Positions 1 to 30,198 of a stretch of DNA of 30,767 nt are shown here, piece after piece. A model generated the notes under the pieces. The model searched no databases. It was not told the origin of the DNA and worked only from the letters and a program-made list of their open reading frames with translations. Every line of letters begins with the position of its first letter. Within the stretch, counting starts at the first letter, position 1. The DNA comes from a virus, in IMG/VR virus record IMGVR_UViG_3300030090_002221, positions 1 through 30,767 of that record, one strand, 5' to 3'. The position numbers and the translations under genes are program-made.

Positions 1-1
1 A

Positions 2-97
2 GCAACAAAAAAATTTGGATGTATGAATTTTTTTAACATTGACAAAGATGGCTCAGATGCTGTCATAGAAAACATAATTAATGAATTTAATAAATAA
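2..97 (+). CDS. C-terminal part of small helical protein (partial, left end)
   Basis: This is the last 31 codons and stop of the gene that is complete at 30304-30516. The window begins inside it. The two copies differ by one base (72 versus 30491), changing Asn to Ser in the segment VIE(N/S)IINEF. It is followed by the variable small gene and denV, the same order as at the right end. I read it as the same locus met a second time when the circular genome was assembled, rather than a broken paralogue. The function is unknown. Confidence 0.7.
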   Translation, partial: ATKKFGCMNFFNIDKDGSDAVIENIINEFNK

Positions 98-104
98 TAT
101 AAAA

Positions 105-314
105 ATGAAAACAAAATTCAAAATAAATGATCAAATTACTTTTAAAGTAAAAATTTTTGGACGAGAAACTTTAAAAACAAATAAAATAAAATATATCGAA
201 AAAATTAATGATAAAACAATATATTTCGTTGGTGGTATTGGAAAATCATTAGGAATACAATTAAATGGTAAAGAAGATTGTTTTATGGTTACAGAAAAAA
301 ATATATTAAATTAA
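105..314 (+). CDS. variable-locus small protein, left allele (69 aa)
   Basis: This is a 69-residue basic protein with alternating hydrophobic and charged residues, which suggests a small beta-barrel; no family is recognised. An in-frame ATG at 81 lies inside the preceding gene. I chose the ATG at 105 because it follows that gene's stop and sits at the matching place in the other allele (30524). The flanks (1-111 and 322 onward) are nearly identical to the right end of the window, but the body of the gene is not alignable to its counterpart at 30524-30706. It lies directly upstream of denV (7-base gap), so it is probably co-transcribed with it. Confidence 0.6.
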   Translation: MKTKFKINDQITFKVKIFGRETLKTNKIKYIEKINDKTIYFVGGIGKSLGIQLNGKEDCFMVTEKNILN

Positions 315-321
315 TATAAAT

Positions 322-699
322 ATGACTAGAATAAATGTTGGAATACCTCCTGCTAATTTACATGCTAAGCATTTAATTGCAGAACATAGAGAAATCAAAA
401 GAATACCAAATTGTATTGCAAAAGGTAAATATAATATGAATAATATACCTGAAAAATTTAAACTTGGTACAGGACACGTTAAATTCTTTTACGATAAATT
501 ATTATATTTGAAAAATAGATATATTAAATTATATAATGAATGTATTAATCGTGGTTATAATGTGCAAAATTATGTTAGCGCTTGGAATAATGTTCCACCA
601 CATTTAATGAATAATTATGTACCTACTAAAAATGATGTTAAATTAATTAAAAATCGTATTAATCAAAAATTAAAAAACAATGGAAAAACAACAATTTAA
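322..699 (+). CDS. denV: pyrimidine dimer DNA glycosylase (T4 endonuclease V-like)
   Basis: This 125-residue protein closely resembles T4 DenV, which cleaves the glycosidic bond at UV-induced pyrimidine dimers and then nicks the abasic site. It starts MTRIN, so removal of Met would expose the catalytic N-terminal Thr. The segment HLIAEHREIKRIP matches T4 HLMAEYRELPRVF, placing the catalytic Glu at residue 24 (Glu23 in T4). The motif LGTGHVKFFYDKL matches the T4 LGAGHVTFFYDKL segment. The T4 protein is 138 residues, and the shorter C terminus here lacks the aromatic WYKYYG tail. It overlaps the next gene by 20 bases. The first 57 bases recur identically at 30711-30767. It probably repairs phage DNA in sunlit habitats. 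Confidence 0.93.
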   Translation: MTRINVGIPPANLHAKHLIAEHREIKRIPNCIAKGKYNMNNIPEKFKLGTGHVKFFYDKLLYLKNRYIKLYNECINRGYNVQNYVSAWNNVPPHLMNNYVPTKNDVKLIKNRINQKLKNNGKTTI

Positions 700-937
700 A
701 GTGATCAACAGAACAACAAGAGAAGAACAAATATTTAATAGTGATGAAATATTAAGATTTTTTAAATGTGAATATGATCACCAAACCAAAAAAATTAAAT
801 ACAATAATAAGATACAAGATTATGCTATATCTCAAATAGAATCAGATGAAGAAAAATTTATGGATAATGTAATTATTTCTTTAATTGGATTATGTATAAT
901 AATTCTAACAACTAAAATAGTAATGTCATGGATTTAA
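680..937 (+). CDS. small protein with C-terminal membrane anchor
   Basis: This is an unrecognised 85-residue protein. The first 60 residues are charged and soluble-looking. Residues about 62-82 (VIISLIGLCIIILTTKIVM) form one strong hydrophobic helix, consistent with a tail-anchored membrane protein. It overlaps denV by 20 bases and the next gene by 10, so it belongs to the rightward operon and is probably translationally coupled. No function can be assigned. Confidence 0.65.
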   Translation: MEKQQFKVINRTTREEQIFNSDEILRFFKCEYDHQTKKIKYNNKIQDYAISQIESDEEKFMDNVIISLIGLCIIILTTKIVMSWI

Positions 938-1290
938 AATGTCAAGATTTTTATTTTAAAAGTGGAAATATATATGGAACTTTTGGAACAGTAAAAAAAT
1001 TCGATTCAGGTACTAACAAATATTATACTGATCTAGAAGAACAAGAAATGTCTATTAGAATATATGGTACTATGGATCAAATTGATCAAGCATTAGAAGA
1101 ATATATGAAAGATACTGATATTATTTTAGATGAATGTTATGACTTCAAAATAGAAAAAAGAGGAACATTTTGGGGTGATTTTTATGGAAAAGATTTAGAT
1201 AAACATAATGAAGAAGTCCAAACAAAATTAGATAAATATAAAAAATTATATAAAGAAAAAAATAAAGCAATAATAATAAGATTAATATGA
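928..1290 (+). CDS. hypothetical protein (120 aa)
   Basis: This protein belongs to no family I recognise. The N-terminal half looks beta-rich and acidic, and the last 30 residues are a Lys-rich helix (DKYKKLYKEKNK). It shares an ATGA overlap with the next gene (1287), typical of coupled translation, and overlaps the previous gene by 10 bases. It is part of the rightward denV operon, so an early accessory role is possible but unproven. Confidence 0.65.
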   Translation: MDLKCQDFYFKSGNIYGTFGTVKKFDSGTNKYYTDLEEQEMSIRIYGTMDQIDQALEEYMKDTDIILDECYDFKIEKRGTFWGDFYGKDLDKHNEEVQTKLDKYKKLYKEKNKAIIIRLI

Positions 1291-1511
1291 CAAAAAACAA
1301 GAAAACAGAAGAAGAACCAATTCAATATGAAATACTAAACGATATTAATACTTTCCATTGTTCTGATGGTGAAGTAGTTTTTAGAGGTAAAAATTCAATG
1401 GGTAAAGATTTTATTTTAACATTTGATGCCTACAATTTTCTTTGTTGGGTTGATCAAGACACTATTAAACATGTTAAAGAAAAAACCATTGAGCATATTA
1501 AAATGCTATAA
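1287..1511 (+). CDS. hypothetical protein (74 aa), last gene of rightward operon
   Basis: This is an unrecognised 74-residue acidic protein with a predicted beta-rich centre (GEVVFRGKNSMGKDFILTF) and a helical C terminus. It starts in an ATGA overlap with the upstream gene. Its stop overlaps the stop of the leftward metallophosphoesterase gene (1506) by six bases, so two opposing operons meet with no intergenic space for a conventional terminator. Confidence 0.62.
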   Translation: MTKNKKTEEEPIQYEILNDINTFHCSDGEVVFRGKNSMGKDFILTFDAYNFLCWVDQDTIKHVKEKTIEHIKML

Positions 1512-2225
1512 AGGCATTAAAAGATTAATTGGTAAAGTTCCATCATTTAATATAACTGCACAACCAACAGCAGGTCTTTTACCATATTTTGCGTATGCCA
1601 TAGCATAAGTTTTATGATTAATTCCGCAACCCACCTGAGTGCCAAACACCCTGAATTTTTTACCTACATAATGTTCAGTATAGCATTGTGTATGTAGATG
1701 TCCTTGTACTGTGTTCATCATATCAGCACGACATTTTGTTCTCGCAGTACCACCCTCACCATGTATGTATTGAACTTTATCTTTTTCATATCTTTCTAAA
1801 AACTCCCAATTAGGTGTTTCTAATACTTCTTTATAGGATTTTATCCATTTACTAGGAATTGCTGATGTTTGTGCCTTTCTCATTATTATTCTATCATGGT
1901 TGCCAATTATAATTTTTGCGTTAGGAAACGCTTTATACCATCTAGCAATCCTTTTAATAGATAATTCCAACTCAGCCAAACCACCCAACCCATCAGCAGA
2001 AGTTTCGTGATAACTGCTATAGTGATTGTCGATAATATCACCAATAAATACAACTTCAGTACAGAAATAAGTTTCATATTGTTTCTTACACCAATCAAGA
2101 TACCCGTCCAAGCAGAATGGCTCATGCAAATCTCCAATAACTAATACATTATTAGTTTTTTTCCTCATTTTCTGCAAGGCGAGGATCTCTTTTGGTTTTA
2201 ATCTATATCTGTTACTTTTTAGCAC
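1506..2225 (-). CDS. calcineurin-like metallophosphoesterase
   Basis: This 239-residue protein has the full metal-binding motif set of the calcineurin-like phosphoesterase superfamily, in order: GDLH (31-34), GDIID (62-66), GNHD (108-111), a His near 155 (YIHGEGG) and GHLH (175-178). Such enzymes use two metal ions to hydrolyse phosphomono- or diesters; the substrate could be nucleic acid, nucleotide or phosphoprotein and cannot be read from the sequence. It is the last leftward gene, overlapping the upstream small membrane protein by 14 bases and located with the lysis genes. No signal peptide is seen, so a cytoplasmic site is likely. Confidence 0.88.
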   Translation of the reverse strand: MLKSNRYRLKPKEILALQKMRKKTNNVLVIGDLHEPFCLDGYLDWCKKQYETYFCTEVVFIGDIIDNHYSSYHETSADGLGGLAELELSIKRIARWYKAFPNAKIIIGNHDRIIMRKAQTSAIPSKWIKSYKEVLETPNWEFLERYEKDKVQYIHGEGGTARTKCRADMMNTVQGHLHTQCYTEHYVGKKFRVFGTQVGCGINHKTYAMAYAKYGKRPAVGCAVILNDGTLPINLLMPL

Positions 2226-2406
2226 TATCTGCTATTCCTTGTCCTATTACTAATGCGATCAATGCGTTACAAATTGCTGTAGTTTGATCAGGGTCTAATC
2301 CAAAAGATTCGTGTAAAAATTGCACAAGTATAGCTGTAATAGTATACCATGCTTTTCTTGACTTTAGGATTTTACCTATTAAAAAGTTTTTTAATAATTC
2401 ATTCAT
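2212..2406 (-). CDS. small membrane protein, holin-like
   Basis: This 64-residue protein has two hydrophobic stretches, about 19-33 (AWYTITAILVQFLHE) and 44-58 (AICNALIALVIGQGI). They are separated by a short acidic turn containing GLDPDQ, and the end is charged. The pattern of a basic start, a hydrophobic segment and a terminal IGQGIAD motif is seen in small phage membrane proteins next to endolysins. It lies just after the M15 peptidase gene, so a holin or holin-accessory role is plausible. Another holin candidate lies at 2872-3039, and which one makes the lesion is not decidable here. Confidence 0.6.
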   Translation of the reverse strand: MNELLKNFLIGKILKSRKAWYTITAILVQFLHESFGLDPDQTTAICNALIALVIGQGIADSAKK

Positions 2407-2434
2407 GTTATATAATTTTAGTTAATAAATTTAG

Positions 2435-2797
2435 TTAAGAATATAACCAAAAAACATCTTGGTCTTTTGAGTTATCCACATCACAGTGTATATAAGTTTT
2501 ACCTATTCCAATCCTATTTATGCCTACACTTATTAATGCTTGAATAATTAAAGCGCGATCACGACTACCAATACATAAAATATCCGCTGCTAATCCTTTG
2601 ACATGAGAACTGCCTACCCTACCACCAACTTTAAAATTCCATTCTTTTGTCCTATATCCACTTGTAATTTTAAATGGAACACCTGCATTATGTCTAGCAT
2701 AATCCAATTTAATTAAGAAATCTTTATCCATGAGTTCTCCTGATTCGGTTTGATCAGGACTATCAAATTCAGATAATTTAAAATACTTTAAATCCAA
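2435..2797 (-). CDS. M15 family peptidase endolysin
   Basis: This 120-residue protein is of the Peptidase_M15_3 (VanY/DD-carboxypeptidase-like) type found in phage endolysins, which cut peptidoglycan cross-bridges. It has FKLSEFDSPD at the start, the ITSGYRT core, and zinc ligands in SSHVKGLAADI (His65, Asp72) and HCDVD (His104, with Asp106). No signal peptide is present, so export should depend on a holin. The start is a TTG one base after the TAG of the upstream 32-codon reading frame, and the family-like N terminus supports it; the next ATG (residue 23) would remove the conserved SEFDSPD block. Confidence 0.9.
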   Translation of the reverse strand: MDLKYFKLSEFDSPDQTESGELMDKDFLIKLDYARHNAGVPFKITSGYRTKEWNFKVGGRVGSSHVKGLAADILCIGSRDRALIIQALISVGINRIGIGKTYIHCDVDNSKDQDVFWLYS

Positions 2798-2798
2798 A

Positions 2799-2897
2799 CT
2801 ATTTTTTTACGTTAGTATATATTTTTGTGCCATGTGCAGTTATACCAACACAAACTTTATCGTCTTTTTCTTTATTGGTTTTTTTCTTTTTTGTCAT
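2799..2897 (-). CDS. tiny Lys-rich reading frame in lysis region (32 aa)
   Basis: This is a 32-codon frame beginning MTKKKKTNKEKDD and ending TKIYTNVKK. Its stop lies one base before the endolysin TTG, and its start overlaps the end of the holin-like gene (2872-3039) by 26 bases. It may be a real small basic protein, or a translated leader that delivers ribosomes to the weak TTG start of the endolysin. The length is too short for firm coding evidence; the position is the main argument. Confidence 0.4.
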   Translation of the reverse strand: MTKKKKTNKEKDDKVCVGITAHGTKIYTNVKK

Positions 2898-3039
2898 AAT
2901 TAAAAAATTTATATATCGTAAAACTAATTGCTAAAATTAAAGAAATGAAAGTTAACACTTCATTAACTTGCACTATACTTATTCCTATCGCTGTACTATT
3001 TGCTATTCCTACTTGTAGTGTATCTTGCACTTCCTTCAT
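2872..3039 (-). CDS. single-TM holin-like small membrane protein (55 aa)
   Basis: This short gene fills the apparent gap between the connector and endolysin genes. The 55-residue product begins MKEVQDTLQVGIANSTAIGI, has a hydrophobic helix at about 27-44 (EVLTFISLILAISFTIYKF) and ends in a charged tail (NYDKKEKNQ). This organisation, and its position two small frames upstream of the M15 endolysin, fits a small holin. It overlaps the 32-codon frame at 2799-2897 and the basic 37-codon frame at 2996-3109. I consider it the best holin candidate, by context and topology rather than by family signature. Confidence 0.65.
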   Translation of the reverse strand: MKEVQDTLQVGIANSTAIGISIVQVNEVLTFISLILAISFTIYKFFNYDKKEKNQ

Positions 3040-3109
3040 TTTTCTTCTTTTTAAGATAAGTTTTCAATTTAGTTTTATTTATTTTTTTTGTTTTATAGTA
3101 TTTTTTCAT
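2996..3109 (-). CDS. tiny basic reading frame after connector gene (37 aa)
   Basis: The ATG follows directly after the TAA of the connector gene (stop at 3112-3110, start at 3109). The 37-residue product is strikingly basic: MKKYYKTKKINKTKLKTYLK and then KKKNEG. It overlaps the holin-like gene by 44 bases. A translationally coupled small protein is possible, but low complexity and short length make chance a real alternative. Confidence 0.35.
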   Translation of the reverse strand: MKKYYKTKKINKTKLKTYLKKKKNEGSARYTTSRNSK

Positions 3110-3688
3110 TTATGTTAAATCAGATGAAGTTAAGAAATCTCTTAAAGTTAATTTAGTATCTTGTTGTCTTGATTTTTCAAGATTCATTCCTGCGTAATAA
3201 GCGTTACTATCAGGACTAACATCTGCACCACTATTAGTGTTATATTCAGGAAAACTGCCTGTATTATTACAAATGTAATCAATCATTCTTTCCATATAAT
3301 ATTCGCCTGTATTTTTAACTTCCTCTCTTAAATGCTGTGCTTCTTCCGTACTTAAAGCATTTCCTGTTTCTGATGTCTTTGAATAAATATTCCCATTTTC
3401 CACTTTAAATCGAAGAAATGGTATTGCATGATATAAAGCAAAATTTGGTAGCATATCACCAATATAAGTGTCTAATAATGTTTTATAAGCTGAATTAGCA
3501 GGATCATTTATAGTACCTGCAGTTATTAAATCTTTTAATTTTTGATTTAATTGAGTTCCTAATTTAGTTTCTACATAAAGTTTTTGCGCTTGTTTTACAA
3601 ATGGTAATAGCAAATCTACATCTACATTCATATTAATCGCAGTAGAATTTTTAAGTTTATCTTCGGATATAAAAAGTACGTATGACAT
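3110..3688 (-). CDS. head-tail connector/head completion protein (DUF6712-like)
   Basis: This 192-residue protein has the layout of the connector-like family common in Bacteroidota phages: an N-terminal FISEDKLKNST segment, then NVDVDLLLPFVKQAQKLYVETKLGT, a helical core around YKTLLDTYIGDMLPNFALYHAIPFL, and a helix ending YYMERMIDYI. These proteins are thought to sit below the portal like HK97 gp6. It directly follows the portal gene (five-base gap), which supports this role. The assignment rests on remembered family features, not an alignment. Confidence 0.7.
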   Translation of the reverse strand: MSYVLFISEDKLKNSTAINMNVDVDLLLPFVKQAQKLYVETKLGTQLNQKLKDLITAGTINDPANSAYKTLLDTYIGDMLPNFALYHAIPFLRFKVENGNIYSKTSETGNALSTEEAQHLREEVKNTGEYYMERMIDYICNNTGSFPEYNTNSGADVSPDSNAYYAGMNLEKSRQQDTKLTLRDFLTSSDLT

Positions 3689-3693
3689 ATTTT

Positions 3694-5565
3694 CTAATTT
3701 CTAGGTTCTAAATAACCGTTGTTCTTCATATTTCTAGGTGCTATTGCTACCAATTCATCATTTCTTTCTGCAGTGAAGCCTTGACTTCTAGCAGTTGTTG
3801 CTTTTATAATTACATCATCTTGGATAGGATCAGGATAATAAACGTAATTATCTTCATTTTTTGGTGCTTTATAAATACGTCTTTCCCAATAATGGAAACA
3901 TTGTGGTCCTCCTTTGTAAAGAAAAATATCATAATTTTTTGCTCCTTTAGGTCCAAATCCTGGATTTACAGCCATTTTTCCCATTTTTATTATATCTTCC
4001 TTTCTGTATATTTTTCCTGCTGTCATCATTTTTTGACAAAATTCTCTCCTAGTTCCACTTTGATTAGTTAAGGATTCATCTCTAGCATAAACATATCTTA
4101 CTTTATAAAACGCTGTGCCTTTTCTATTTAGTCCATCTTGCTTACTTCTAGCGTTAGGATTTGCTCTACCTGTAGATGTAAGTTCTAGTTTATTGTTTGC
4201 TATGTCATTTAATTCTTTTTCGTAATCAAAATCTCTATGTTCACCATCTACTATTTCTGTATTAATAATTTCCCAATTTTCAGGTATATCTTCAAGTGTT
4301 TCTAAATAGGTTTCTAAAGTTGAGAAATCTGACATTTTAGTCATATCTTCTTTTACTACAACATCTTCATCTAAAGGTGGTAATCCTAATTCCTCTCTAA
4401 TTTCATCTTGCGTCATTACAGCAGCCAAATCTTGATTAGTAAATCTTGTAGTAATAGGTTTCAATTGCACAAAAGACAATGGCATATCCATATTATTACA
4501 ATAAAACAACTTATTTAGTATTTTTATAATATGATCTTGGAATGGTTTAATTACAGTATTTAGGTAAAAGTTTGCTGCTGTATTTAACTCATCAGCATTA
4601 TTTCCTAATCCTGTATCTGACTTTATTCCCATAAGCATAGGACTTGTAACTCTATGTCCTGTTAGAATATTTTGTACAAGTAATTCTTGTAGTGCTAGAT
4701 ATTGCTTATCTGCATCAGCCATAGAAATTGGATTAATTTCAGGCGTTCTTGTTTTATCGTCAGAAAATGTTAGTACAAATTTTCCACTATTATGAGCACC
4801 TGTAAACTTATCTGCTAAACTTCTTTCAATTTGTAATCTTTCTTCTTGTGTTGGAACTCCATTAGCAAAGGAAATAAAGTAACTTCCTGAGAATCCATTT
4901 TGTATGTTATTTAGATGGAACTCAGCCACGTTTTGGTCTATTAATGCCCAATTATTAGCTGCAAGATAATCAGGTGTATGGTAGACGTTCATATCAGGAC
5001 TATATAATCCACTATATAATATCTGATTAGCACTTGTTCTGTCATGTTTATTAAATGCAGGTACTTTATATGGTTTATTTTGCCTAGTATTTCTCCAATC
5101 AGAACAGACGTAATAATTACAAACTTTACCCATTTCATCAGGTTTTTCTGCTCTTACTTTTTCAACAGGAATATGGTAAATTTCTGCAATTTCTGTCCTA
5201 TCGGCAGACCATACTATGTTTAAAGCAAAAGCACCCTGTAATTTGAAATCAAAAGCAACTTTTTTAATAACTTCATGTAAAGTTTCGTGAGAATTACATT
5301 CAGCCATAAATTGCTTTAATTTAACTAATCTTTTTAAATCTGCATTTTCTTCATCTTCAATAATTATATCTTCTGCACTTATCATTTCTGCAGTTGCATT
5401 GATAATAGCAGCCTGAGTAGAACTATTGTAATATAAATCTATAAGGAACTGAGGATATAAGTTTTTCCAATCTTCTGTTCCATATTCAATATAATCTTTT
5501 CCTCTTGTTTCAACAACTTGTGGCGCTGTGGTAGTTTCTAAATTTACACTTAAAATATTTTCCAT
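3694..5565 (-). CDS. portal protein with long C-terminal extension
   Basis: This 623-residue protein is the portal, the ring at the capsid vertex through which DNA is packaged and the tail attached. Residues about 1-400 have typical portal features: early TQAAIINATAEMISAEDI, the FDFKLQGAFALNIVW region, and the QELLVQNILTGHRVTSPMLM helix before the NTVIKPFQDHIIKILNKLF stem. HK97-type portals are about 400 residues. Here the last 200 or so form an added domain with KNYDIFLYKGGPQCFHYWERR, a block I associate with virion proteins of Bacteroidota phages. The gene lies 15 kb downstream of the terminase, after the capsid genes, which is unusual. The connector follows it. Confidence 0.85.
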   Translation of the reverse strand: MENILSVNLETTTAPQVVETRGKDYIEYGTEDWKNLYPQFLIDLYYNSSTQAAIINATAEMISAEDIIIEDEENADLKRLVKLKQFMAECNSHETLHEVIKKVAFDFKLQGAFALNIVWSADRTEIAEIYHIPVEKVRAEKPDEMGKVCNYYVCSDWRNTRQNKPYKVPAFNKHDRTSANQILYSGLYSPDMNVYHTPDYLAANNWALIDQNVAEFHLNNIQNGFSGSYFISFANGVPTQEERLQIERSLADKFTGAHNSGKFVLTFSDDKTRTPEINPISMADADKQYLALQELLVQNILTGHRVTSPMLMGIKSDTGLGNNADELNTAANFYLNTVIKPFQDHIIKILNKLFYCNNMDMPLSFVQLKPITTRFTNQDLAAVMTQDEIREELGLPPLDEDVVVKEDMTKMSDFSTLETYLETLEDIPENWEIINTEIVDGEHRDFDYEKELNDIANNKLELTSTGRANPNARSKQDGLNRKGTAFYKVRYVYARDESLTNQSGTRREFCQKMMTAGKIYRKEDIIKMGKMAVNPGFGPKGAKNYDIFLYKGGPQCFHYWERRIYKAPKNEDNYVYYPDPIQDDVIIKATTARSQGFTAERNDELVAIAPRNMKNNGYLEPRN

Positions 5566-5566
5566 A

Positions 5567-6373
5567 TTATAATAAAGAGTTTAGATAAATATATAAATTT
5601 TTTCTTTCAGTAGCTGAAAGCACATGGTCTTTATAAATTAAAAGATTTTTAATAACACCCTCAAAATTATTAGAACCATCTGCAGAAGCACCAATATTAT
5701 TAATTACAAAAGCATCAGAATCATTATTAGTAGTAACCCCCCAAATTTTGTCATCATACATAGTTTCTTGATGTACATAGCATCTTAAATTACCTGAAAC
5801 CCCTCCTGACCTTTGTATAGTAATAATGAAATCTTTATTTGTTACGATAGTGTCTGTTGCTTCAGTAAAATTACTATTTCCTGTGCCACCAATTTTACAT
5901 CTAAATCCTGCATCTGATTGTATCCTAAAAAAATTATTAGCATTAGAACCATAAACTGCTTTTTGAGATAGGTCAGAAAAAATTACATGGCACATAATAC
6001 TAAAATCCTCATTTTCGTCAATTTCAACATCAGATGCCATATTCATATATTGATTTCCATCAAAATGACAATTTGGTTTTTCTGTAACAGGTGCAGAACT
6101 ATAAACATTCCATCTTGGTTTTACATCTTCATCTGCTTGTGTAGCTGCGTTACCACCTATTATATCTGTCCATAAATTTATTCTGTCACCAATTGCCATA
6201 TTTCCATCAGAAGTACGGTGTGGTGGTGATAAAGTACTACCTGCTGCATCTTGATCAGCCGCTATACTTTCTTGAAATTTATACCAGGTAACTAAACCTG
6301 TTATATCTCTAGGATTAAACCTAACATTTTTAATAGTTGGTAAACTAAGTGCTAAAGATTGTTTTAATACCAT
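5567..6373 (-). CDS. concanavalin A-like lectin/LamG-fold virion protein
   Basis: This 268-residue protein shows the pattern of phage LamG/ConA-like jelly-roll domains. There is an N-terminal hydrophobic lead with DITGLVTWYKF, then INLWTDIIGGN, CHFDGNQYMNM, a central FSIMCHVIFS strand and a C-terminal FEGVIKNLLIYKDHVLSATE followed by a short helix. Such domains bind carbohydrate on cell surfaces or decorate the virion. It overlaps its upstream neighbour by one base (TAATG) and ends just before the portal gene. It is probably a capsid decoration or adsorption protein. Confidence 0.7.
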   Translation of the reverse strand: MVLKQSLALSLPTIKNVRFNPRDITGLVTWYKFQESIAADQDAAGSTLSPPHRTSDGNMAIGDRINLWTDIIGGNAATQADEDVKPRWNVYSSAPVTEKPNCHFDGNQYMNMASDVEIDENEDFSIMCHVIFSDLSQKAVYGSNANNFFRIQSDAGFRCKIGGTGNSNFTEATDTIVTNKDFIITIQRSGGVSGNLRCYVHQETMYDDKIWGVTTNNDSDAFVINNIGASADGSNNFEGVIKNLLIYKDHVLSATERKNLYIYLNSLL

Positions 6374-6657
6374 TATGACCTAGTTTCGTAATAACACAAA
6401 GCAACACCTGAACTTAAAGTTATAGCTGTTACATTAAGAAAAATAGTTGTTCCTGCTGCCATAGTTGTATGCAAATTAGATATAGCAGAACCTGCCACTG
6501 CAGTTGCATTAGCTGCTGTAATATTTGATATTACACTTTCTACAGGAAAATGAATGCAATAATAATCTTTACCTGACATAGCAGTAGTAGATATTACATC
6601 ACATTGGTTTTTTCCTAATTGCTCATATAAAAGTTCGTTGTTATTTTCTATTCCCAT
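6373..6657 (-). CDS. small virion-associated protein (94 aa)
   Basis: This protein is not recognised as a family. It is a 94-residue Ala/Thr-rich, beta-leaning sequence (NITAANATAVAGSAI, LHTTMAAGTTIFLNVTAITL) of a composition common in phage structural proteins. It lies between two putative decoration proteins and overlaps the LamG-like gene by one base. A head decoration or fibre-support role is inferred only from context. Confidence 0.55.
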   Translation of the reverse strand: MGIENNNELLYEQLGKNQCDVISTTAMSGKDYYCIHFPVESVISNITAANATAVAGSAISNLHTTMAAGTTIFLNVTAITLSSGVALCYYETRS

Positions 6658-6668
6658 TTTATTTTATT

Positions 6669-7361
6669 TTAATAATATATATAATTTTTTTCGTATATGT
6701 TTGCTGATATTTGTGCTTCTTTACCAAATCCTCCACCTGTTAGTGTTACTTTTGGATTAGATGTATATCCACCACCTTTATTTGTTAAAGTAACTGTATT
6801 AATCTCTCCACCTAATATAGTGCAAGTCGCTGTAGCTTGTGAAATTGATCCAGATTCTATTGAAATAGTAGGTGGTGAAGTATATCCAAAACCTGCATAA
6901 TCAATAGTTAATTCCACTACATAGTTAGAATGTTGTACGTATTGCACTTGTTCTTCACCTGTTTCTTCTTCTACATATAATTTTCCTATTTCTACTAATC
7001 CACTAACTAAACCATATTGAGTTTCGTCAGGTAATACAGAATTTTCTGTCATTGGTGCATGTTCACCATCTAATTGGATATTTTCTTGCCAAGATATTTC
7101 GTAAACTTCATATTTCCAATATCCTGCAGGAGTTAAATTTATTCTTCCTGTCAATGTATTAGGTGTAGCGTGATAAGTGAAATCACATTTAGTATATCTG
7201 TCAGTTATTGTTTCTGTAGTTGCATAAGAATAAATAGTATCTCCTGTCATATCATTCGTAAACTTAAATAAATGATTCCAATTAGAAGCAGAAGTATTAA
7301 TTCTATTTTCTTTTGTAGTGACATAAACAGTAAAATTTTCTTTTTGTGTTGCATGAATCAT
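6669..7361 (-). CDS. beta-repeat virion protein
   Basis: This 230-residue protein has an N-terminal domain of about 150 residues and a C-terminal pair of repeats of the type GYTSPPTISI...ATATCTILGGEINTVTLT and GGGYTSNPKVTLTGGG. These Gly-Tyr-Thr-Ser repeats occur in many phage structural proteins and bacterial surface proteins and form stacked beta structure. It follows a transcription terminator after the tail tube gene. The N-terminal part has a virion-protein appearance (YWKYEVYEISWQENI). It may be a decoration or head fibre protein. Confidence 0.6.
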   Translation of the reverse strand: MIHATQKENFTVYVTTKENRINTSASNWNHLFKFTNDMTGDTIYSYATTETITDRYTKCDFTYHATPNTLTGRINLTPAGYWKYEVYEISWQENIQLDGEHAPMTENSVLPDETQYGLVSGLVEIGKLYVEEETGEEQVQYVQHSNYVVELTIDYAGFGYTSPPTISIESGSISQATATCTILGGEINTVTLTNKGGGYTSNPKVTLTGGGFGKEAQISANIYEKNYIYY

Positions 7362-7396
7362 ATTATATAATAGAAAATACTATAATATATTTGCTT

Positions 7397-7424
7397 AAAA
7401 AAGAAAAGAGGGCAAATTGCCCCC
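7397..7424 (-). terminator. intrinsic terminator after tail tube gene
   Basis: On the leftward strand a GC-rich hairpin (GGGCAA paired with TTGCCC, arms at 7417-7422 and 7410-7415) is followed by a T-rich tract (TCTTTTCTTTTTT, 7409-7397). This is the textbook form of a Rho-independent terminator, placed between the tail tube stop (7460) and the next start (7361). Confidence 0.8.
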
Positions 7425-7459
7425 TAATCAAAGATATAAAGATTACTTAAGTAAGAATA

Positions 7460-8026
7460 TTATGATGATACTATAGGAATCTGAGCTCCTGAATCTGCGT
7501 TATCAAATGCAGTAGCAGTATAATCTTTCATAAATACAAAAGGCTCAGGCTCTAAACCATCGAAAGTCAGAGTGTAACCATTCCTATCTCCAAATGCCGC
7601 TCCAGTGTCCTCAGTTCCTGCATTTAAACTCATTGAGTTGTGTCTACCTAGACATATAATTTGATTATGCCCATTTGCTAACAAAGAATTTAACTCACAA
7701 AATATAACTACTTGAGTTTGTCCAAGTAATTTAATCTCATTTTGATCTTCTTTAGTTAATTTATTTAATACCATGTTTACTGTAGGTGTATAAAATAACG
7801 TTCCATTTTCTACTGATCCTGTAATTGATTCAGAAGCGTTAGTAGAACCTCTAGGAACTACGTATTTATACAAACTATTAGTAGTCATGTCTATATCTGT
7901 TATTTCGGAAGATGTTACAGTCATAGAAGTGATTTGATCAGATACTGCGAAATATACCGCTTTTACGCCACCTGAAATCCTCGAACAATCTAAGCCTCTT
8001 CCTTTAGTTAATGAAGTACATGCCAT
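7460..8026 (-). CDS. probable major tail tube protein
   Basis: This 188-residue protein begins MACTSLTKGRGLDCSRISGG and ends with GDRNGYTLTFDGLEPEPFVF. That layout is seen in tail tube-like structural proteins of Bacteroidota siphophages. A central charged helix (MVLNKLTKEDQNEIKLLGQ) is followed by beta strands. The gene stands alone between two intrinsic terminators, directly after the capsid gene, as expected for a protein made in bulk. It could instead be another abundant head or tail structural protein; the family call is from pattern memory. Confidence 0.6.
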   Translation of the reverse strand: MACTSLTKGRGLDCSRISGGVKAVYFAVSDQITSMTVTSSEITDIDMTTNSLYKYVVPRGSTNASESITGSVENGTLFYTPTVNMVLNKLTKEDQNEIKLLGQTQVVIFCELNSLLANGHNQIICLGRHNSMSLNAGTEDTGAAFGDRNGYTLTFDGLEPEPFVFMKDYTATAFDNADSGAQIPIVSS

Positions 8027-8043
8027 ATTTTCGTGTTTTAAAA

Positions 8044-8074
8044 GTTAAAAACAGAGGGTATATTTCAACCCTCT
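8044..8074 (-). terminator. intrinsic terminator after major capsid gene
   Basis: A perfect seven-base stem, AGAGGGT (8053-8059) with ACCCTCT (8068-8074), has an eight-base loop. On the leftward strand it is followed by GTTTTTAACTTTT. It lies between the capsid gene stop (8087) and the tail tube start (8026). The other strand is also T-rich after the stem, but no rightward gene precedes it. Confidence 0.75.
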
Positions 8075-8086
8075 ATTTTATAATTA

Positions 8087-9022
8087 TTATGATTGGTGAA
8101 CTATATCTGTTCCAACTCCTAATTGTACGCCACCAGTGTATTTAGCAACTAAACGTACATTATCTGATCCATCTAAAGCAGCCATATCCATCAAAGCAAT
8201 TCTTGTAGTGTCAGATAATAAATCTGTTCCAAAGAATAAGTTTGATTTTTCAGCAGCTACCATTTGGTTGTTAGGCATACCTGGACAAACTGCAATCTTG
8301 TATCCCTCGAATACAGGCTCATAGTCTCCATTCATGTTATAAGCATTTACATATCCTAAAGTAGATACTGCAGATATATATAAAGCATAAGTTTTAGCGT
8401 TCATGTATATATGCAAATCATCTTTAGTTAAAGCAGAATTTAAATTAGATGCCATTGCTCCAGTTAAAGATTGTAGGTTAGCTATTATATTAGAAGCGTC
8501 ATAAGGAGCAGTAGCCGTGTCAGCGTGTACTGTTCCATCTACTGCGAATGCTCCTGTAGTTGCAGTTAGGAATCCTTCAAATTCTCCATTTGTTGCTCCT
8601 GTTCCTGTCCAAATATTATTTTCAGCTGCGTTTGCGATTATTTCACCCATGTATGAAATTACGTAATCTTCAAAACTTGCAGGTAGTGGAGCTCCTGCAC
8701 CTGCTCTCATTTCTAAAGCTTCCCAAGAACTTAATAAGTTATTCTTACATAAACTAAGATTAACCTGTAGGTTCTTTGGCTCTAGGATTTTTTCAGTCAA
8801 TTCTAATTTTCCTTGACTTTCAAAGTCACAAGTTGCATTTCTTACAAGTCCTTCTCCCCCTGCATCAACGCCATGCGACATTCTTTGGATAACTGATTTA
8901 TACTTGATATTTTCTATCATAGTTAAAAAATCTAAACTCTTAGCTTCTTTTAAAGCTGCTGAGATATAGAATCCAGCTGCTTTTCCTGCAAACGTAGATC
9001 CTGTTATAGTTGGTTGTGCCAT
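8087..9022 (-). CDS. major capsid protein (HK97-fold type)
   Basis: This 311-residue protein looks like the major capsid protein of Bacteroidota siphophages. It has a short N-terminal region, a KNLQVNLSLCKNNLL stretch before the core, the segment ENNIWTGTGATNGEFEGFL, and a C-terminal block NLFFGTDLLSDTTRIALMD followed by VRLVAKYTGGVQLGVGTDIV. The order upstream is XkdF-like protease, acidic scaffold, capsid, the usual prohead module. A strong terminator follows it, consistent with high expression. The start ATG has the recurring AAATTATGGCA context of the late genes. Confidence 0.87.
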   Translation of the reverse strand: MAQPTITGSTFAGKAAGFYISAALKEAKSLDFLTMIENIKYKSVIQRMSHGVDAGGEGLVRNATCDFESQGKLELTEKILEPKNLQVNLSLCKNNLLSSWEALEMRAGAGAPLPASFEDYVISYMGEIIANAAENNIWTGTGATNGEFEGFLTATTGAFAVDGTVHADTATAPYDASNIIANLQSLTGAMASNLNSALTKDDLHIYMNAKTYALYISAVSTLGYVNAYNMNGDYEPVFEGYKIAVCPGMPNNQMVAAEKSNLFFGTDLLSDTTRIALMDMAALDGSDNVRLVAKYTGGVQLGVGTDIVHQS

Positions 9023-9048
9023 AATTTATTATTTTTATTTATTAATTA

Positions 9049-9747
9049 TTATTTATTAAGATTATATATGAATCTTTCTTTTTTAGACAATTTGTTGTAC
9101 TCTTTTCTTGATAACGTTGGTTTGTCTGAAGTAAACTTATTAGTGTTTATAGGAGTTTCTGCAGGTTTTTTACCTAACTCTATTTTTAAATTTTCAACTT
9201 CTTCTTTTAACGCTTGTGCTTCTTCTTGAGAAAATTCAACCACTTCTGTAGTTTTTATAGATTTTGGATTCGTACCTGGTTCAGACATTTCAACTTCTTC
9301 TTCTTCAACTGAATCTTCACCTAATTTAGATTTTAGGTCAGCAACAGCGTCCTCTAAATTCTTAATTCTTTTTTCCATACCCTCCCAATCAGCAACATCT
9401 GCTTCTTCGTCATTGTAGTCATCTTCCTCTTTATCTTCTTCTTTTTCAGCTTCTACTTCTTCTTTTGGAGTTTCAGCTTCTTCTGTTTCTGTTTCCATAA
9501 CTTCAGCAACTACTCCCTCATCTTCAACTCTAAAAGATACACCTGTATCAGTTTTATAAGTTCCAATTGGTAATGGAATTGTTGTTCCATCTTCTGTTAA
9601 AACGCTAATATCCACGCCTTGTGCTAATTCTTCTGCAGTAGATACCAATATTGTACCATCTTCAGTTTTAGCTTGCCATTCTAATTTAATAGCTTCGGAT
9701 TCCTTATCTAATCCAAGCGCTACAAGTATTTGATTTTTAATATCCAT
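9049..9747 (-). CDS. capsid scaffolding protein
   Basis: This 232-residue protein is highly acidic, with a Glu/Asp-rich middle (residues about 80-155) and predicted coiled coil (GMEKRIKNLEDAVADLKSKLG), and a Lys-rich C terminus (RKEYNKLSKKERFIYNLNK). An acidic coiled-coil protein with a basic capsid-binding tail, encoded immediately upstream of the capsid gene and downstream of a protease, is the signature of a scaffold degraded during prohead maturation. The N-terminal 75 residues look like a small beta domain (WQAKTEDGTILVSTAEELAQG) and may be a second functional unit. Confidence 0.75.
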   Translation of the reverse strand: MDIKNQILVALGLDKESEAIKLEWQAKTEDGTILVSTAEELAQGVDISVLTEDGTTIPLPIGTYKTDTGVSFRVEDEGVVAEVMETETEEAETPKEEVEAEKEEDKEEDDYNDEEADVADWEGMEKRIKNLEDAVADLKSKLGEDSVEEEEVEMSEPGTNPKSIKTTEVVEFSQEEAQALKEEVENLKIELGKKPAETPINTNKFTSDKPTLSRKEYNKLSKKERFIYNLNK

Positions 9748-9778
9748 AGTTTTTAGTATTTGTTATATAATAGTTAGT

Positions 9779-10504
9779 TTACTTATTTATTTGATTTTCT
9801 TGTATTATTTCATTTAATGCACGTAAAATTTCTTCATCTGTAGGTGTTCTTTCGTTCATTTGTTCAAATTTGTCCACAAAGTAACCCTCTATAGATAATC
9901 CTTTTAACTCTCCTGCTTTAATTTTTTCCCATAATTCATTGTTCTCAATTTTCATTTTTACAAACCATGTTCCATTTGGTAAATCAAATCCATATAATTT
10001 AGATTTATCTTGATCACCCTCTTTTATCCATGATTCTATTGTAAGAACACCTGATACTCTTTCTTGATGTTGATAAGTTGCCTTATGGTGGTTATTATGT
10101 TTTAAATATAATTCACTTGCTTTCCTTACCGTTTCAGGACTAAAATAAACATAGTAATCTGAATCAGTATTTGGATCATATCTAAATATTTGTTTGTTTG
10201 GTATAAGTGCAGGACTAACTAACATTCTTTTTTCCTCATCAATTTTTGCAAATGTTAAATTATTCTTTTCTTTACCAAAAAACACAAAATCCTGCTCTAT
10301 TGCAGGTGCTGTAACTAAACTTATAGCGTCAATAGCCAATTCTTCAGAATCGTTATCTATAACTAATTCTACAATTTTAGTCGTTTTTTCTTCTTCGTAG
10401 TGGTTATTAGGATTTGCTTGTTTACATTCTTCTATAGAATCGTATTCACATTCTCCTCTATCACCCCACTTTGCTTTTCCGTTATCGCATTTCTTACAAG
10501 GCAT
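9779..10504 (-). CDS. prohead protease, XkdF-like
   Basis: This 241-residue protein matches the XkdF-type putative phage serine protease pattern. It has ISLVTAPAIEQDFVFFGK, then KRMLVSPALIPNKQIFR, the FSPETVRKASELYLKH helix, a His-rich HHKATYQHQ stretch, TWFVKMKIENNELWEKI and GELKGLSIEGYF. The N terminus has six Cys in MPCKKCDNGKAKWGDRGEC...ECKQ, a short CxxC module seen on related proteins. Position directly before scaffold and capsid supports a role in prohead maturation. Confidence 0.8.
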   Translation of the reverse strand: MPCKKCDNGKAKWGDRGECEYDSIEECKQANPNNHYEEEKTTKIVELVIDNDSEELAIDAISLVTAPAIEQDFVFFGKEKNNLTFAKIDEEKRMLVSPALIPNKQIFRYDPNTDSDYYVYFSPETVRKASELYLKHNNHHKATYQHQERVSGVLTIESWIKEGDQDKSKLYGFDLPNGTWFVKMKIENNELWEKIKAGELKGLSIEGYFVDKFEQMNERTPTDEEILRALNEIIQENQINK

Positions 10505-10538
10505 AATATATAATAGTTTTAATTGTTATTTATTTGAT

Positions 10539-12455
10539 TTATATCGTACTGTTTCTTCTAATTTCACCTAATTGCTCCTGAGAATTAGACATTTCATCAG
10601 TAACTACAAACGCTTTAATTGGATCAGGTTCTTCACCACCACCTAATGTGAATGCACCACTACCCATAATTGCTTCTGTTGGTGCAGCTTCTACAGTATT
10701 TGCAGCTTCTACAGATGAAGCGCTTAAATCAGGTGTAGTTTGATCAGGTGGCGAATTGCTTTCTGACCTTATCGCTTGAATGTTTTTAAATCCTGCTACT
10801 ATTGCAGCTGCTGCCGCTATACCACCAAGAACAGGACCAACAACAGGAATAGATGACATTGAGGTAAAAGCTTGAGTTGCACCTAAATAAGTTTGGATAG
10901 TTGCCTGTGCAATTGCTGCAGCTTTTCCTGCTTTACTTTCTTTACCCATTATATCTGATAATTGTCCAAAAGCGTCAGATGCTAAACCTATTTTTTGTCT
11001 CGTAGTTAATTCTTCATCTTTAGTTTCTTGCTGATTTATTTTTGCTTTAGCACGTGCATATTTTTTATCTATTTCTTCTTTTAATGCTGCAAAATTTTCC
11101 ATACCTGCAATAGATTCCATTTCTTTTCTTTGCTGTATATCTAATTCTGCTTCTGCTCGTCTCGTTTCATCTTCTATAAGTGCTAAGAAATTTTCATCAC
11201 GCAATTCCTGTAATAATTCAGCTTCTTCTGCTCTTTTTTCAGCAGCTTTTTCCGCTTCTTCTTCTTCTTTAGCTGCTTTTTCGTCTAATTTAGCTTGTTC
11301 TTCTTCATCTCTTGCTTTTTTCTCTGCTGCTATTTCATTTTCAAAAGCATTTACTTCTGTCATTACTCGCCTACGCATTTTCATAGACGCAGTTTGTTTT
11401 TCAATTAATGCAACTTTTAAATCTGCTAATTTTTGTTCATCTTCTACTAAATTTTCAGATTGTGCCATTGCTTCTTGCTGTACTCTTACTCGTTCAGCTG
11501 CTAATTCTAACTCTCTTTGTGTTGTTTGCTCCTCTAACTCTAAAGCTTTTTTAAGATTATCTAACCTTTCTTGTGCAGATAATGATTCATCTTCTGCAGC
11601 TAATCTTGCTTTTTCTATTTCTTTTCTTGTTTCAGCTTTTTGTATAGCAAACTGCATTTCTGTATCTCTTAATTTTTGAGTTGCTTTTTCTAATTCTCCC
11701 ATTATTTCAACCTCTTTCTTGATCTCCTCACCCATTCCTGAAAATGCTTCTTTAGTTTCACTTATTGCTTCTTTTAATGAGGTTTTTCCTGTAAAGAAAT
11801 TTTTAATAATACCACCAAATTGAGAAATTCTATCTTTTATCACATCAACTGCAGCACCTACTTTTGCAAACACAACTGCTAATTCATCTGCTCCTCTTTT
11901 AGTGCTAGTAAAATAAGTCATTAATGAACCAAAAGCAATTAATAATGCTCCTATACCTGTACTCAATATTCCTGCAGTAATAGTACTAAACATTAATTTA
12001 GCAGTTGGTATAATTTTACCCATAGTTGCTTTGACATCATTTAAAGATACACCCATAATCCTTAAATTACCTACTCCCTCATCTAATGCTTTATTGCTAT
12101 CTTTTTGTGCGTCATTGAATTTTTTAACTTCTTTTCCTGCTTGAGATTGTTGTTGTTTTAATTCTTTAAGACCTATTTTTTCTAATTTTAATTCTTTTGT
12201 GGTATCTGCTATTTGTTTATTCAAATCTCCCATACCTTTGTAAAATGCTCCTTTTGGTATAGCGTCCTGTTTTGCTTTTAATTCAATTAGATTTTTTTCT
12301 AGATCATTTATTACGTTATTTTGGATATTTATTTGATCACCTAACTCAGTATATTCTTTTGTAACTGAATCTAAAGATTTTTCAAACTCTTTTACCTCTT
12401 GCGTTGCTTGTTTTATATCTGATTTTACCGAAAAAATTAATTCTTCACTTGCCAT
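10539..12455 (-). CDS. tail tape measure protein
   Basis: This 638-residue protein has long coiled-coil regions at both ends, and the middle is Glu/Lys/Ala-rich (residues about 230-480). A hydrophobic pair of helices lies at 151-182 (FSTITAGILSTGIGALLIAF) and a second Gly/Ala-rich hydrophobic patch nearer the C terminus (VVGPVLGGIAAAAAIVAGF). These are the marks of a tape measure, which sets tail length and leaves the tail tip during DNA entry. No peptidoglycan hydrolase domain is seen. By the usual rise per residue of about 0.15 nm the tail should be near 95 nm, an inference. It lies downstream of the tip genes rather than upstream. Confidence 0.88.
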   Translation of the reverse strand: MASEELIFSVKSDIKQATQEVKEFEKSLDSVTKEYTELGDQINIQNNVINDLEKNLIELKAKQDAIPKGAFYKGMGDLNKQIADTTKELKLEKIGLKELKQQQSQAGKEVKKFNDAQKDSNKALDEGVGNLRIMGVSLNDVKATMGKIIPTAKLMFSTITAGILSTGIGALLIAFGSLMTYFTSTKRGADELAVVFAKVGAAVDVIKDRISQFGGIIKNFFTGKTSLKEAISETKEAFSGMGEEIKKEVEIMGELEKATQKLRDTEMQFAIQKAETRKEIEKARLAAEDESLSAQERLDNLKKALELEEQTTQRELELAAERVRVQQEAMAQSENLVEDEQKLADLKVALIEKQTASMKMRRRVMTEVNAFENEIAAEKKARDEEEQAKLDEKAAKEEEEAEKAAEKRAEEAELLQELRDENFLALIEDETRRAEAELDIQQRKEMESIAGMENFAALKEEIDKKYARAKAKINQQETKDEELTTRQKIGLASDAFGQLSDIMGKESKAGKAAAIAQATIQTYLGATQAFTSMSSIPVVGPVLGGIAAAAAIVAGFKNIQAIRSESNSPPDQTTPDLSASSVEAANTVEAAPTEAIMGSGAFTLGGGEEPDPIKAFVVTDEMSNSQEQLGEIRRNSTI

Positions 12456-21543: not shown

Positions 21544-21877
21544 CTATATTAACCTTAATTTTTACAGGTTCTGCTGATGTTAAATCTAATTCTTGTTTTT
21601 CTATATATCCTCTTTTCTTACCTTTTGTTTTTAAATAGAATATAGTTGCAGGTGTATTGCCATTTTTTATTTGCGAATGTAATTGACTTTCTGCAAAATC
21701 AAGTGCTATATTTTCTATTTCTTTAACTTGATCAGCAAATTCTTTATCCTCTTTTAACCATTTATAATATGTACTTCTTGGAATATTTGCTGATTTACAA
21801 GCAACTGTTACCACGCCTAAACTATTTTCTAAAGCTTGTAACATTGCTTCCTTTTTTATATGTCTACTTTTGTCCAT
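21527..21877 (-). CDS. terS: terminase small subunit
   Basis: This 116-residue DNA-recognition partner of the large subunit has an N-terminal helix-turn-helix at about 12-45 (LGVVTVACKSANIPRSTYYKWL) and an acidic helical middle. A segment KTKGKKRGYIEKQE resembles small terminases of the phBC6A51 type. Its start is in a TAATG overlap with the glycosyltransferase stop, and its end overlaps terL. Confidence 0.87.
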   Translation of the reverse strand: MDKSRHIKKEAMLQALENSLGVVTVACKSANIPRSTYYKWLKEDKEFADQVKEIENIALDFAESQLHSQIKNGNTPATIFYLKTKGKKRGYIEKQELDLTSAEPVKIKVNIDGIEH

Positions 21878-23223
21878 TATTTAATGTATTTATCTAATAA
21901 AATATTATAATTATAACCAAACTCATTTAATATACATTTTATTTTTGTTTGTGGAAAAGATTGACTTGCATATCCTAATCTGAATATAAAATTTTTAAAT
22001 TCATTAAGGTCTATTTTATCATAAGTATCCAAGTAATTTTTTATTTTTGTTTTGCTTTCTTCTTTTTTAATACTTTCAAAGACATTTGTTTTATTATCTT
22101 TTACCATATCTTGAAAATATTTATCTATTTTTTTTGCATGAGTATCTAATAATAATTTATCTTTTTCTTTATATTTATATTCTCTTATATTTTTAGTAAG
22201 TATATTTTTAAGAATTTTATATTGTTCTTCTTCTGTTTCAAATAAATAAGGATAATCTTTATCTACTAATTCAGGAAAAGTAACTTTATTAGGCGCTATT
22301 ATTAATTGATTATTCATTATACTTTCTGCGATACTTATACAAAATGTTTCATGTCTACTATTTATTACATTTGCATGACATTTGGATAACTCCTTTAGAT
22401 AATCTTCATGCAAAATAAAAGATTTAACTTCAGTATATGGTTTATTTTCTACTTGTCCTAAATTACCTTTATCTCCTGCAGTTAAAACGACTTTAAATTT
22501 TTCTCCCTCATTATATAATCTATCAAACATAGCAAAAGTATCTTTCCAATTTTTATATCCATCTAATCTATGATTATAAATAAAAGTAAATGTATCATAT
22601 TTTTCTTTGGTTTCTATTTTGTTGCAATATCCACCTATATCTATTATAACCTTTTTTTGTAATTTATCTATTTCTTTTTTATTTAAGATGTCTTTTGCTT
22701 CTTCTATTAGCATATTATAGCAATGTTTGGTATGGAAATAATTTACATCAGCGCACATGCTTCCTATAATCTGATCCAACATTATATGTCGACATGGTAA
22801 ATAATTTGTTAAGCGTTCTAGGCTTCTATGTATTACATAATGGTGATAATTGAATACCTTAGTTCTAAAATCATCTACGATAGTGTCTTGGAAATACCTA
22901 AAATGATGTCCTTGCTCAACTACATTATTCCAAACTATGTCAATAGCATATTTTTTATATATTTCTCTAAACACATTAGTATTAAAATGTATAACTTGGT
23001 GCTTTTTACTTCTTGGAAATGGTATTTGTAATATTTTAATTTTTTGATCAAGATTGTCTTTTATATATTTTCTGTTTTTATCTAATATTAAGAAAAAATT
23101 ATAATTATTTGTTTTTATCAACTCATTACATAAATTTTTTATAATTACATAATTACTATCTGCATTTATATTATCTACAGAAAACATTGGATATATTAAT
23201 ATGTTTAATTTTGTACGTTGCAT
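21877..23223 (-). CDS. GT-B glycosyltransferase (GT4-like)
   Basis: This 448-residue protein has the two-domain GT-B look. The N-terminal Rossmann half begins LNILIYPMFSVDNINADSNY. The C-terminal half has IYNHRLDGYKNWKDTF (215-230), FKVVLTAGDKGN and the sugar-nucleotide motif SRHETFCISIAES, in which Glu292 and Glu300 form EX7E. It then runs through LIIAPNKVTFPELV. The extra 100 C-terminal residues are charged and helical. It is inserted between ParB-like and terS genes, overlapping both, so it is a stable member of the operon. Targets could be phage DNA bases, virion proteins or host glycans; none is proven. Confidence 0.82.
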   Translation of the reverse strand: MQRTKLNILIYPMFSVDNINADSNYVIIKNLCNELIKTNNYNFFLILDKNRKYIKDNLDQKIKILQIPFPRSKKHQVIHFNTNVFREIYKKYAIDIVWNNVVEQGHHFRYFQDTIVDDFRTKVFNYHHYVIHRSLERLTNYLPCRHIMLDQIIGSMCADVNYFHTKHCYNMLIEEAKDILNKKEIDKLQKKVIIDIGGYCNKIETKEKYDTFTFIYNHRLDGYKNWKDTFAMFDRLYNEGEKFKVVLTAGDKGNLGQVENKPYTEVKSFILHEDYLKELSKCHANVINSRHETFCISIAESIMNNQLIIAPNKVTFPELVDKDYPYLFETEEEQYKILKNILTKNIREYKYKEKDKLLLDTHAKKIDKYFQDMVKDNKTNVFESIKKEESKTKIKNYLDTYDKIDLNEFKNFIFRLGYASQSFPQTKIKCILNEFGYNYNILLDKYIK

Positions 23224-26587: not shown

Positions 26588-26913
26588 TGTATTAATTTAT
26601 TTTTTGGTTTATAATAAGGTATATTTTTTTGTCCTAATGTTTCAGTCATGTAAATGGCATTATCGATAGTTTTTTTATGATCAATTATCCACTTATAAAA
26701 TGTTCTTATATTTAAAAAAGGTTCAAATGTTCCAAATCTAACACCTAAATGAAATGCTGTTTCTATTTCTTCAAATGTTAAATTTTTAAATCTTTTTTCT
26801 GTTTGCAAATCATTTGCTAATATTTTCGCTAATGACGCCATAGTTTTTCCATCAGTTTTTAAACCTAACTCTATAGAGGTTTTTACTATTAATTCATAAC
26901 ATTTTTCTTTCAT
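26584..26913 (-). CDS. hypothetical phage replication-region protein (109 aa)
   Basis: This is a helical protein with the pattern MASLAKILANDLQTEKRFKN, followed by LTFEEIETAFHLGVRFG and NIRTFYKWIIDHKKTI. Similar proteins occur in replication regions of Bacteroidota phages, but I cannot name a function. It overlaps the methyltransferase gene by four bases and the next gene by four. Confidence 0.62.
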   Translation of the reverse strand: MKEKCYELIVKTSIELGLKTDGKTMASLAKILANDLQTEKRFKNLTFEEIETAFHLGVRFGTFEPFLNIRTFYKWIIDHKKTIDNAIYMTETLGQKNIPYYKPKNKLIQ

Positions 26914-27572
26914 AATGATAATATTATTTCTTTACATAATTCATAAGGCACTTTACTTCTTTCATAATTACCTTTTATACCTTGCGTTCCTGTTTGTGAA
27001 CCTCTTGGTGCTGATTCATGACATGGATCACCATTTTTACATATAGGTCTAGGTAACCAACCTTGTAATTTGTTATCTCCAAATAAATCATTATTTGATA
27101 AATGATTAGTCCATATATCTGTTGGTTTCATTCTTTTATCTCCATATTGACAATATGTTACTGTTGCTCTAGGTAATTTTTGCATAAACTTTAATTTTCT
27201 TAATTTACCTCTAGGATTTTCTATAAAAAAATAATCAGGTTGGAAAAAATCTATTATCTCTAATGTTTTTCTAACAATTTGACAACCAACTATTGCTTCT
27301 AATGTTTTTGGTGTATGATCTTTATTCCAATGATGACCAATACTTGCAACACTAAAATAGGTGCATGGTGGACTTGCCCAAACACAGTCTATTTTATCTA
27401 TTCCTTTTTTAAATAAATGTTTTGATAATTCATGACAATCTAAATCTAATATATTTTTTACTAAATCTATATTTTTAAAAGATTTAATATCAGTAGAAAA
27501 AGTTTTATAACCAAATTCCTCTGCTACCTTACTAAAACTCCTACTCCCTGCAAATAATTCTAATATATTCAT
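26910..27572 (-). CDS. compact cytosine-C5 DNA methyltransferase
   Basis: This 220-residue protein resembles the C5-cytosine methyltransferase catalytic domain. Motif I is LELFAGSRSFSKVAEEFGY (4-22); motif IV is WASPPCTYFS with catalytic Cys70; motif VI is FFIENPRG, with Glu118; motif VIII-like TYCQYGDKRMKPTDIW; and a C-terminal KVPYELCKEI like motif X. Typical enzymes are 300-450 residues; here the variable target-recognition region is very short. No restriction enzyme lies beside it, so it looks solitary and protective. It overlaps the replication protein gene by four bases. Specificity cannot be read. Confidence 0.85.
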   Translation of the reverse strand: MNILELFAGSRSFSKVAEEFGYKTFSTDIKSFKNIDLVKNILDLDCHELSKHLFKKGIDKIDCVWASPPCTYFSVASIGHHWNKDHTPKTLEAIVGCQIVRKTLEIIDFFQPDYFFIENPRGKLRKLKFMQKLPRATVTYCQYGDKRMKPTDIWTNHLSNNDLFGDNKLQGWLPRPICKNGDPCHESAPRGSQTGTQGIKGNYERSKVPYELCKEIILSL

Positions 27573-29548: not shown

Positions 29549-29553
29549 TGTTT

Positions 29554-29931: not shown

Positions 29932-29954
29932 TGTTTTATTATTTAAATTAATAA

Positions 29955-30113: not shown

Positions 30114-30143
30114 TGTTTTATTATTTAATTGATTAATATGAGA

Positions 30144-30174: not shown

Positions 30175-30198
30175 CATCTTAACATAGTTTTCAAAATA

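Follow-up and report, generated by a model that had tools for sequence, protein, structure and literature searches.

Two small genes in one early-operon slot at the overlapping ends of a phage contig

The stretch of DNA analysed here, called the window throughout, is a 30,767-base IMG/VR virus record with a GC content of 28.7%. It is best explained as one circular phage genome of about 30.4 kb, drawn from a population with at least two near-identical strains that would differ in a single slot of the early operon, a reading to which we assign a probability of roughly 0.8. The evidence comprises an end overlap far beyond chance, a difference between the ends the size of one open reading frame (ORF), circular assemblies among relatives, and the gain, loss and switching of genes in the homologous slot. 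One strain would hold a small gene, A, and the other a different small gene, B, in the same place; the assembler would have completed one circuit of the genome and stopped in the slot, following the A strain at one end and the B strain at the other. Recombination through the shared flanks may be the route by which A and B are swapped, and coexistence of the two versions in the sample is likely.

End overlap and circular map

Positions 1-111 and 30420-30530, both on the plus strand, were taken in the earlier note for one locus with a single mismatch, and self-BLAST of the window bears this out (99.1% identity, E 4e-52). The first 71 bases are common to both copies of this left flank, the mismatch follows at 72/30491 (A/G, giving Asn/Ser in the upstream gene c70), and the copies are again common to position 111. 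On the right, self-BLAST aligns 313-378 with 30702-30767 (97%, E 2e-25), and within this alignment the two plus-strand copies of the right flank, 319-378 and 30708-30767, are identical over 60 nt that hold the spacer and the first codons of denV. The same note had described this match as free of mismatches, which is correct, and as 57 nt long (322-378/30711-30767), which falls short of the full 60. Only these 111 and 60 nt of flank are seen twice in the window. No single k-mer length fits both exact overlaps (71 and 60 nt), and an attempt to derive the assembler's k from them led nowhere.

Between the flanks the left end carries ORF A (105-314, plus strand, 69 aa) and the right end ORF B (30524-30706, plus strand, 60 aa), in arrangements that are alike: the stop of c70, 7 nt, the start ATGAAAA, the stop of the ORF, a short spacer and the ATG of denV. 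Because A and B share this start and the same end before denV, the two versions differ by one ORF and little else. By self-BLAST, neither cassette has another copy in the window. The A and B proteins align no better than chance: their local alignment score (30) is attained by 1204 of 5000 shuffles and the global score by 1196 of 5000. The sole hint of kinship is a weak hhalign match (27 columns, probability 6%, E 0.006 for a single pair). With the shuffle test non-significant and hhalign weak, homology of A and B was rejected, and to call them alleles of one gene is too strong.

A search with the terminase returned 315 relatives; the best 80, at 78-91% identity, were retained. From 29 long records, the 20 longest (28.0-33.1 kb) were compared as the long relatives. 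Exact terminal repeats of 98-127 nt occur in nine of them (G001, G003, G005, G008, G009, G010, G011, G015 and G017; 28.6-31.5 kb in length) and a 41 nt repeat in G014, while a further four have imperfect terminal overlaps (G006, 152 nt at 96.7%; G007, 256 nt at 97.7%; G018, 145 nt at 85.5%; G020, 95 nt at 96.8%). The ends of G012 share two short diverged matches, and an end overlap is absent from G002, G004, G013 and G019, a short 82% match in G002 not being terminal. The repeats lie in different genes in different relatives, which indicates that these genomes map as circles and that contig ends are arbitrary points on them. Fixed direct terminal repeats should be identical and lie at fixed physical ends, and here the relatives end in different genes and the ends of the window differ in mid-overlap. 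The imperfect overlaps, at 85-98% identity in four of 20 long relatives, further indicate that strain differences at assembly ends recur in the group; in those four they are point differences, and no other clear whole-gene difference within a terminal overlap was seen among the 20. The nine circularising relatives support the earlier note's view that both ends belong to one locus and that the genome measures about 30.4 kb, and the window most likely represents a circularly mapping genome of that size with two sequence versions at the junction. Subtraction implies a circle of 30,419 bp with A and of 30,389 bp with B.

Among 33 records that match the large terminase, the closest named phage is Flavobacterium phage 11b (AJ842011; 53.6% identity over 95% of the query), which has a genome of 36 kb against the circle of about 30.4 kb implied here. 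On this basis a host within the Flavobacteriia is a fair guess. A megablast of positions 1-12000 against the phage collection gave no match.

Both cassettes might instead lie in tandem in one genome (c70-B-denV ... c70'-A-denV), the contig having broken inside the duplication. The contig by itself fits such an arrangement, with A and B each seen once, at an end, but duplicated flanks 99-100% identical would then have to surround unrelated middles, the 20 long relatives lend no support, none of them having c70 or denV, and the lengths of the nine exact-repeat relatives agree with a single circle of 30.4 kb. A tandem is accordingly improbable.

Slot genes and an apparently inverted operon

The slot lies in an early operon on the plus strand, whose presumed promoter or leader (30270-30303) contains TATATTTACACTATAATTAAA at 30273-30293; this sequence occurs nowhere else in the window, even when 3 mismatches are allowed (0.03 expected), and its promoter function is putative. 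Scans for promoters, terminators and tRNAs yielded no useful result. The first gene is c70 (30304-30516, 70 aa), whose 3′ part forms the left flank and recurs at 1-97, followed by A or B and then by denV (322-699, 125 aa), a pyrimidine dimer DNA glycosylase (phrog_1183, E 2e-38; Pfam Pyr_excise, E 2e-14). Downstream are o85 (680-937) and o120 (928-1290), two early genes common to relatives by sequence match, and o74 (1287-1511), the last gene of the operon. The metallophosphoesterase gene o239 (1506-2222, minus strand; phrog_221, E 3e-45) adjoins on one side, and beyond the other side lies o128 (29162-29548, minus strand), also common to relatives. Several other features of the window were observed in passing. 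The product of o120, a gene that many relatives share, resembles the SpoIISA toxin of Pfam at a score below the cutoff (E 6.5e-5; 23.2 bits vs 27). A short leader sequence is repeated upstream of three consecutive minus-strand genes (29542-29572, 29923-29946 and 30104-30138) and could provide short homology between gene starts. Next to the terminase genes lies a glycosyltransferase gene (21877-23223), detected in two of the 20 long relatives, and positions 26910-27572 encode a cytosine-type DNA methyltransferase, detected in one of them.

At E 1e-5, c70, A and denV are found in none of the 20 long relatives. The small flanking gene had been described as conserved, which does not hold for c70: neither it nor A has a confirmed relative in viral_contigs, by a search on exact 8-residue patterns that finds close relatives only and may exclude the records nearest the window, or any match at E 1 in the phage collection, and against 37,478 stop-to-stop frames of the relatives' loci the best values were E 2.4 for c70 and 0.57 for A. 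The cassette does adjoin denV, which has 115 relatives in other viral contigs; its absence from the long relatives means that it is not conserved in this phage group. Within the stretch from o239 to o120, c70, A or B, and denV are the window's accessory genes.

For B the same close-relative search found one relative in viral_contigs, and the phage collection held none. A copy at 80% identity lies in locus L164 downstream of the same o239 gene, with other neighbours and without c70 or denV, and B is present in one of the 20 long relatives (G011, E 1e-5). A two-row model built on B matched five of the 29 long records, G011 strongly; the other four matches (E 0.002-0.003) cover 17 positions within longer frames and were judged to be chance. 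Neither A nor B has a family match at E 0.01 or better. The structure model of A, for which no relative was found, is unusable (pLDDT 47). The best of five AlphaFold models of B reached pLDDT 80 and consists of beta strands, the other four scoring 40-49; in fold searches it had no match at E 0.001 (E 0.14 for the best PDB entry and E 0.014 for the best viral one), with SH3/Tudor-like barrels among the non-significant matches. The place of A and B in an early operon makes accessory proteins acting on the host plausible, and small early proteins directed at the host or its defences are the most likely assignment, a guess from position.

The operon from c70 to o74 appears to be inverted relative to that of relatives, a feature overlooked in the earlier note. 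In the window c70, A or B, denV, o85, o120 and o74 are on the plus strand and o239 and o128 on the minus strand; in all 75 loci compared, o120 is on the same strand as o239. The 21 nt at 30273-30293 before c70 are identical in L179 (the same record as L272), 78 nt past its o239; among the relatives compared the exact match is confined to L179, and the stretch before c70 aligns with five relatives. Since this leader stretch follows o239 in relatives, the operon appears to have been inverted together with its leader. In the window the stops of o74 and o239 overlap (1511 and 1506). In G001 a longer inverted block has its last stop at 2252, 4 nt from the o239 stop (2257), and in L164 B and a 155-aa ORF are reversed after o239 (3653, 3648). 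Reversed genes thus converge on the o239 stop in three genomes (window 30304-30767 plus 1-1511, L250:1-2257 and L164:2995-3653), with content that differs each time and stops within 6 nt, which is perhaps a recurrent inversion boundary; opposite-strand ORFs after o239 also occur in L228/L229 and a few others. A repeat search of G001 turned up eight inverted matches, all of them short and weak (best E 0.009).

The inverted orientation is common to both ends of the contig, an argument for their origin in one phage type. This bears on an assembly chimera, in which one end was extended by reads of a less related phage that has only the overlap stretch in common with the first. The ends of G016 overlap over about 2.8 kb at only 75-79% identity, so that a contig end may run into a diverged relative, but in the window the flanks are 99-100% identical and both ends have the same unusual operon orientation, and a chimera is unlikely. 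Near-identical flanks and shared orientation place both ends in very close relatives, at which point a chimera merges with the reading of two near-identical strains. The G016 overlap itself (L280:814-3584 vs the last 3 kb of L281, covering portal and the next gene) may be a larger two-version end, or a chimera.

Although the inversion could suggest a programmed diversity system exchanging the gene, either site-specific inversion or a diversity-generating retroelement, this is very improbable: no inverted repeats, as expected at both boundaries of an invertible (phase-variable) element, were found at E 1 between 1300-1800 and 30000-30400, the window contains neither a second nor a template copy of either cassette, and a PHROGs scan covering 28 of its 50 ORFs returned no site-specific recombinase or reverse transcriptase family. 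A secondary "transposase" match (E 4e-5) proved to be the small terminase subunit.

Variation of the slot among relatives

The 20 long relatives have a strongly conserved gene order, with o239 followed by o85, o120, o74, o128 and ssb where detected, mostly on one strand. The earlier note had proposed to look in related contigs for further cassettes in this slot; in relatives the stretch from o239 to o120, to which the slot belongs, holds 97 further ORFs in 52 clusters across 75 loci (0 to 9 per locus), an upper figure in that cluster c1 may be a diverged o85. The o239 search behind this comparison kept the best 80 of at least 559 confirmed matches. Loci were oriented with o239, those without o239 and L164 (its o239 match being reversed) were dropped, and the 75 represent 73 contigs, with L095/L204 and L098/L225 each from one contig.

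In 44 pairs of loci the o239 genes are at least 93% identical. The match breaks off 63-148 nt beyond the point where the o239 match ends, and resumes at 93% or more, in 16 of these pairs; 10 are collinear, each with an identity of 99.6% or higher; and in 18 it breaks off and does not return to 93%, in at least 2 of them at a contig end. The pairs are not independent: L098/L225 sets one contig against itself, and several loci are nearly the same. Merging by hand (L098/L099/L225, L228/L229, L177/L180, L182/L183, L206/L207, L211/L237, L214/L216 and L233/L235) leaves 26 distinct pairs, of which 11 lose and regain the match and 15 do not regain it, with no collinear pair left. A match was counted as regained at the first stretch to reach 93%, weaker intermediates being skipped (L098/L228, 87.5%; L209/L212, 90.9%). 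Distances run from the end of the tblastn o239 match, which stops at residue 228 of 238 in L208, L209 and L212, where true distances from the stop codon may be about 30 nt shorter. The clearest pair, L208/L212, has a flank at 99.4% identity, 242 vs 721 unmatched nt, and then 97.1% identity; some other cases are plain insertions or deletions (L132 vs L123 and vs L178).

In 11 of 15 hand-picked pairs the break is no more than 15 nt from where the first ORF begins in one or both members, and in the other four it lies elsewhere (L098/L228, L167/L168, L194/L205 and L208/L209). The 15 comprise 11 of the 16 regaining pairs (the five omitted repeat L098/L228) and 4 of the 18 non-regaining pairs. In L173/L186 the break comes directly after ATGAAAA, like that between A and B in the window.

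Some intervals in these genomes vary more than the slot does. The spacing from o239 to ssb has a standard deviation of 232 nt (n=14), a statistic computed on main-strand genes with gaps from -1000 to 8000, and four of the other 24 intervals exceed it (o230-portal, 1329; o86-terS, 624; o109-nuc134, 411; o177-o109, 286). Comparison of three whole-genome pairs shows the slot to differ, along with other places, in G003/G006, where the largest difference sits before terS, and in G008/G007; it is not listed for G014/G016, which differ in 18 other gaps. Judged from these sequences, the relatives habitually change their gene content downstream of a shared leader, which supports from independent data the hotspot idea advanced in the earlier note; that part stands on variation among close relatives (16 of 44 pairs), and a hotspot in the sense of the most variable interval does not.

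Relation to known islands of phage diversity

Flexible gene modules, or metaviromic islands, with coexisting variants have been described in other environmental phages (PMC7468147; PMC3909814), and they resemble the window in having near-identical flanks around abruptly different gene content, in a slot that varies among close relatives. The window has such flanks, 111 nt at 99.1% and 60 nt at 100% (visible lengths only), around dissimilar ORFs, and its slot varies in this way in the 44 pairs described above. Those islands were found via read recruitment, whereas the present case is drawn from one contig and its relatives, and homologous variants in PMC7468147 are often near 40% nucleotide identity, unlike A and B, which have no significant similarity.

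A broader model is possible, with the odds somewhat against it, in which the early operon would be a standing platform for cassette exchange: a conserved leader through ATGAAAA would anchor recombination, single ORFs would be swapped precisely from start to stop, the platform could flip as a unit at the phosphoesterase stop, and the window would have caught two strains one swap apart. The A/B slot is a good example of a known process of phage diversity, not a new system, and it illustrates that the ends of a contig can preserve differences in gene content among wild phages. It also provides an early-operon slot, in an AT-rich phage group with 315 IMG/VR terminase matches, at which gene replacement near the start codon could be followed with long reads.
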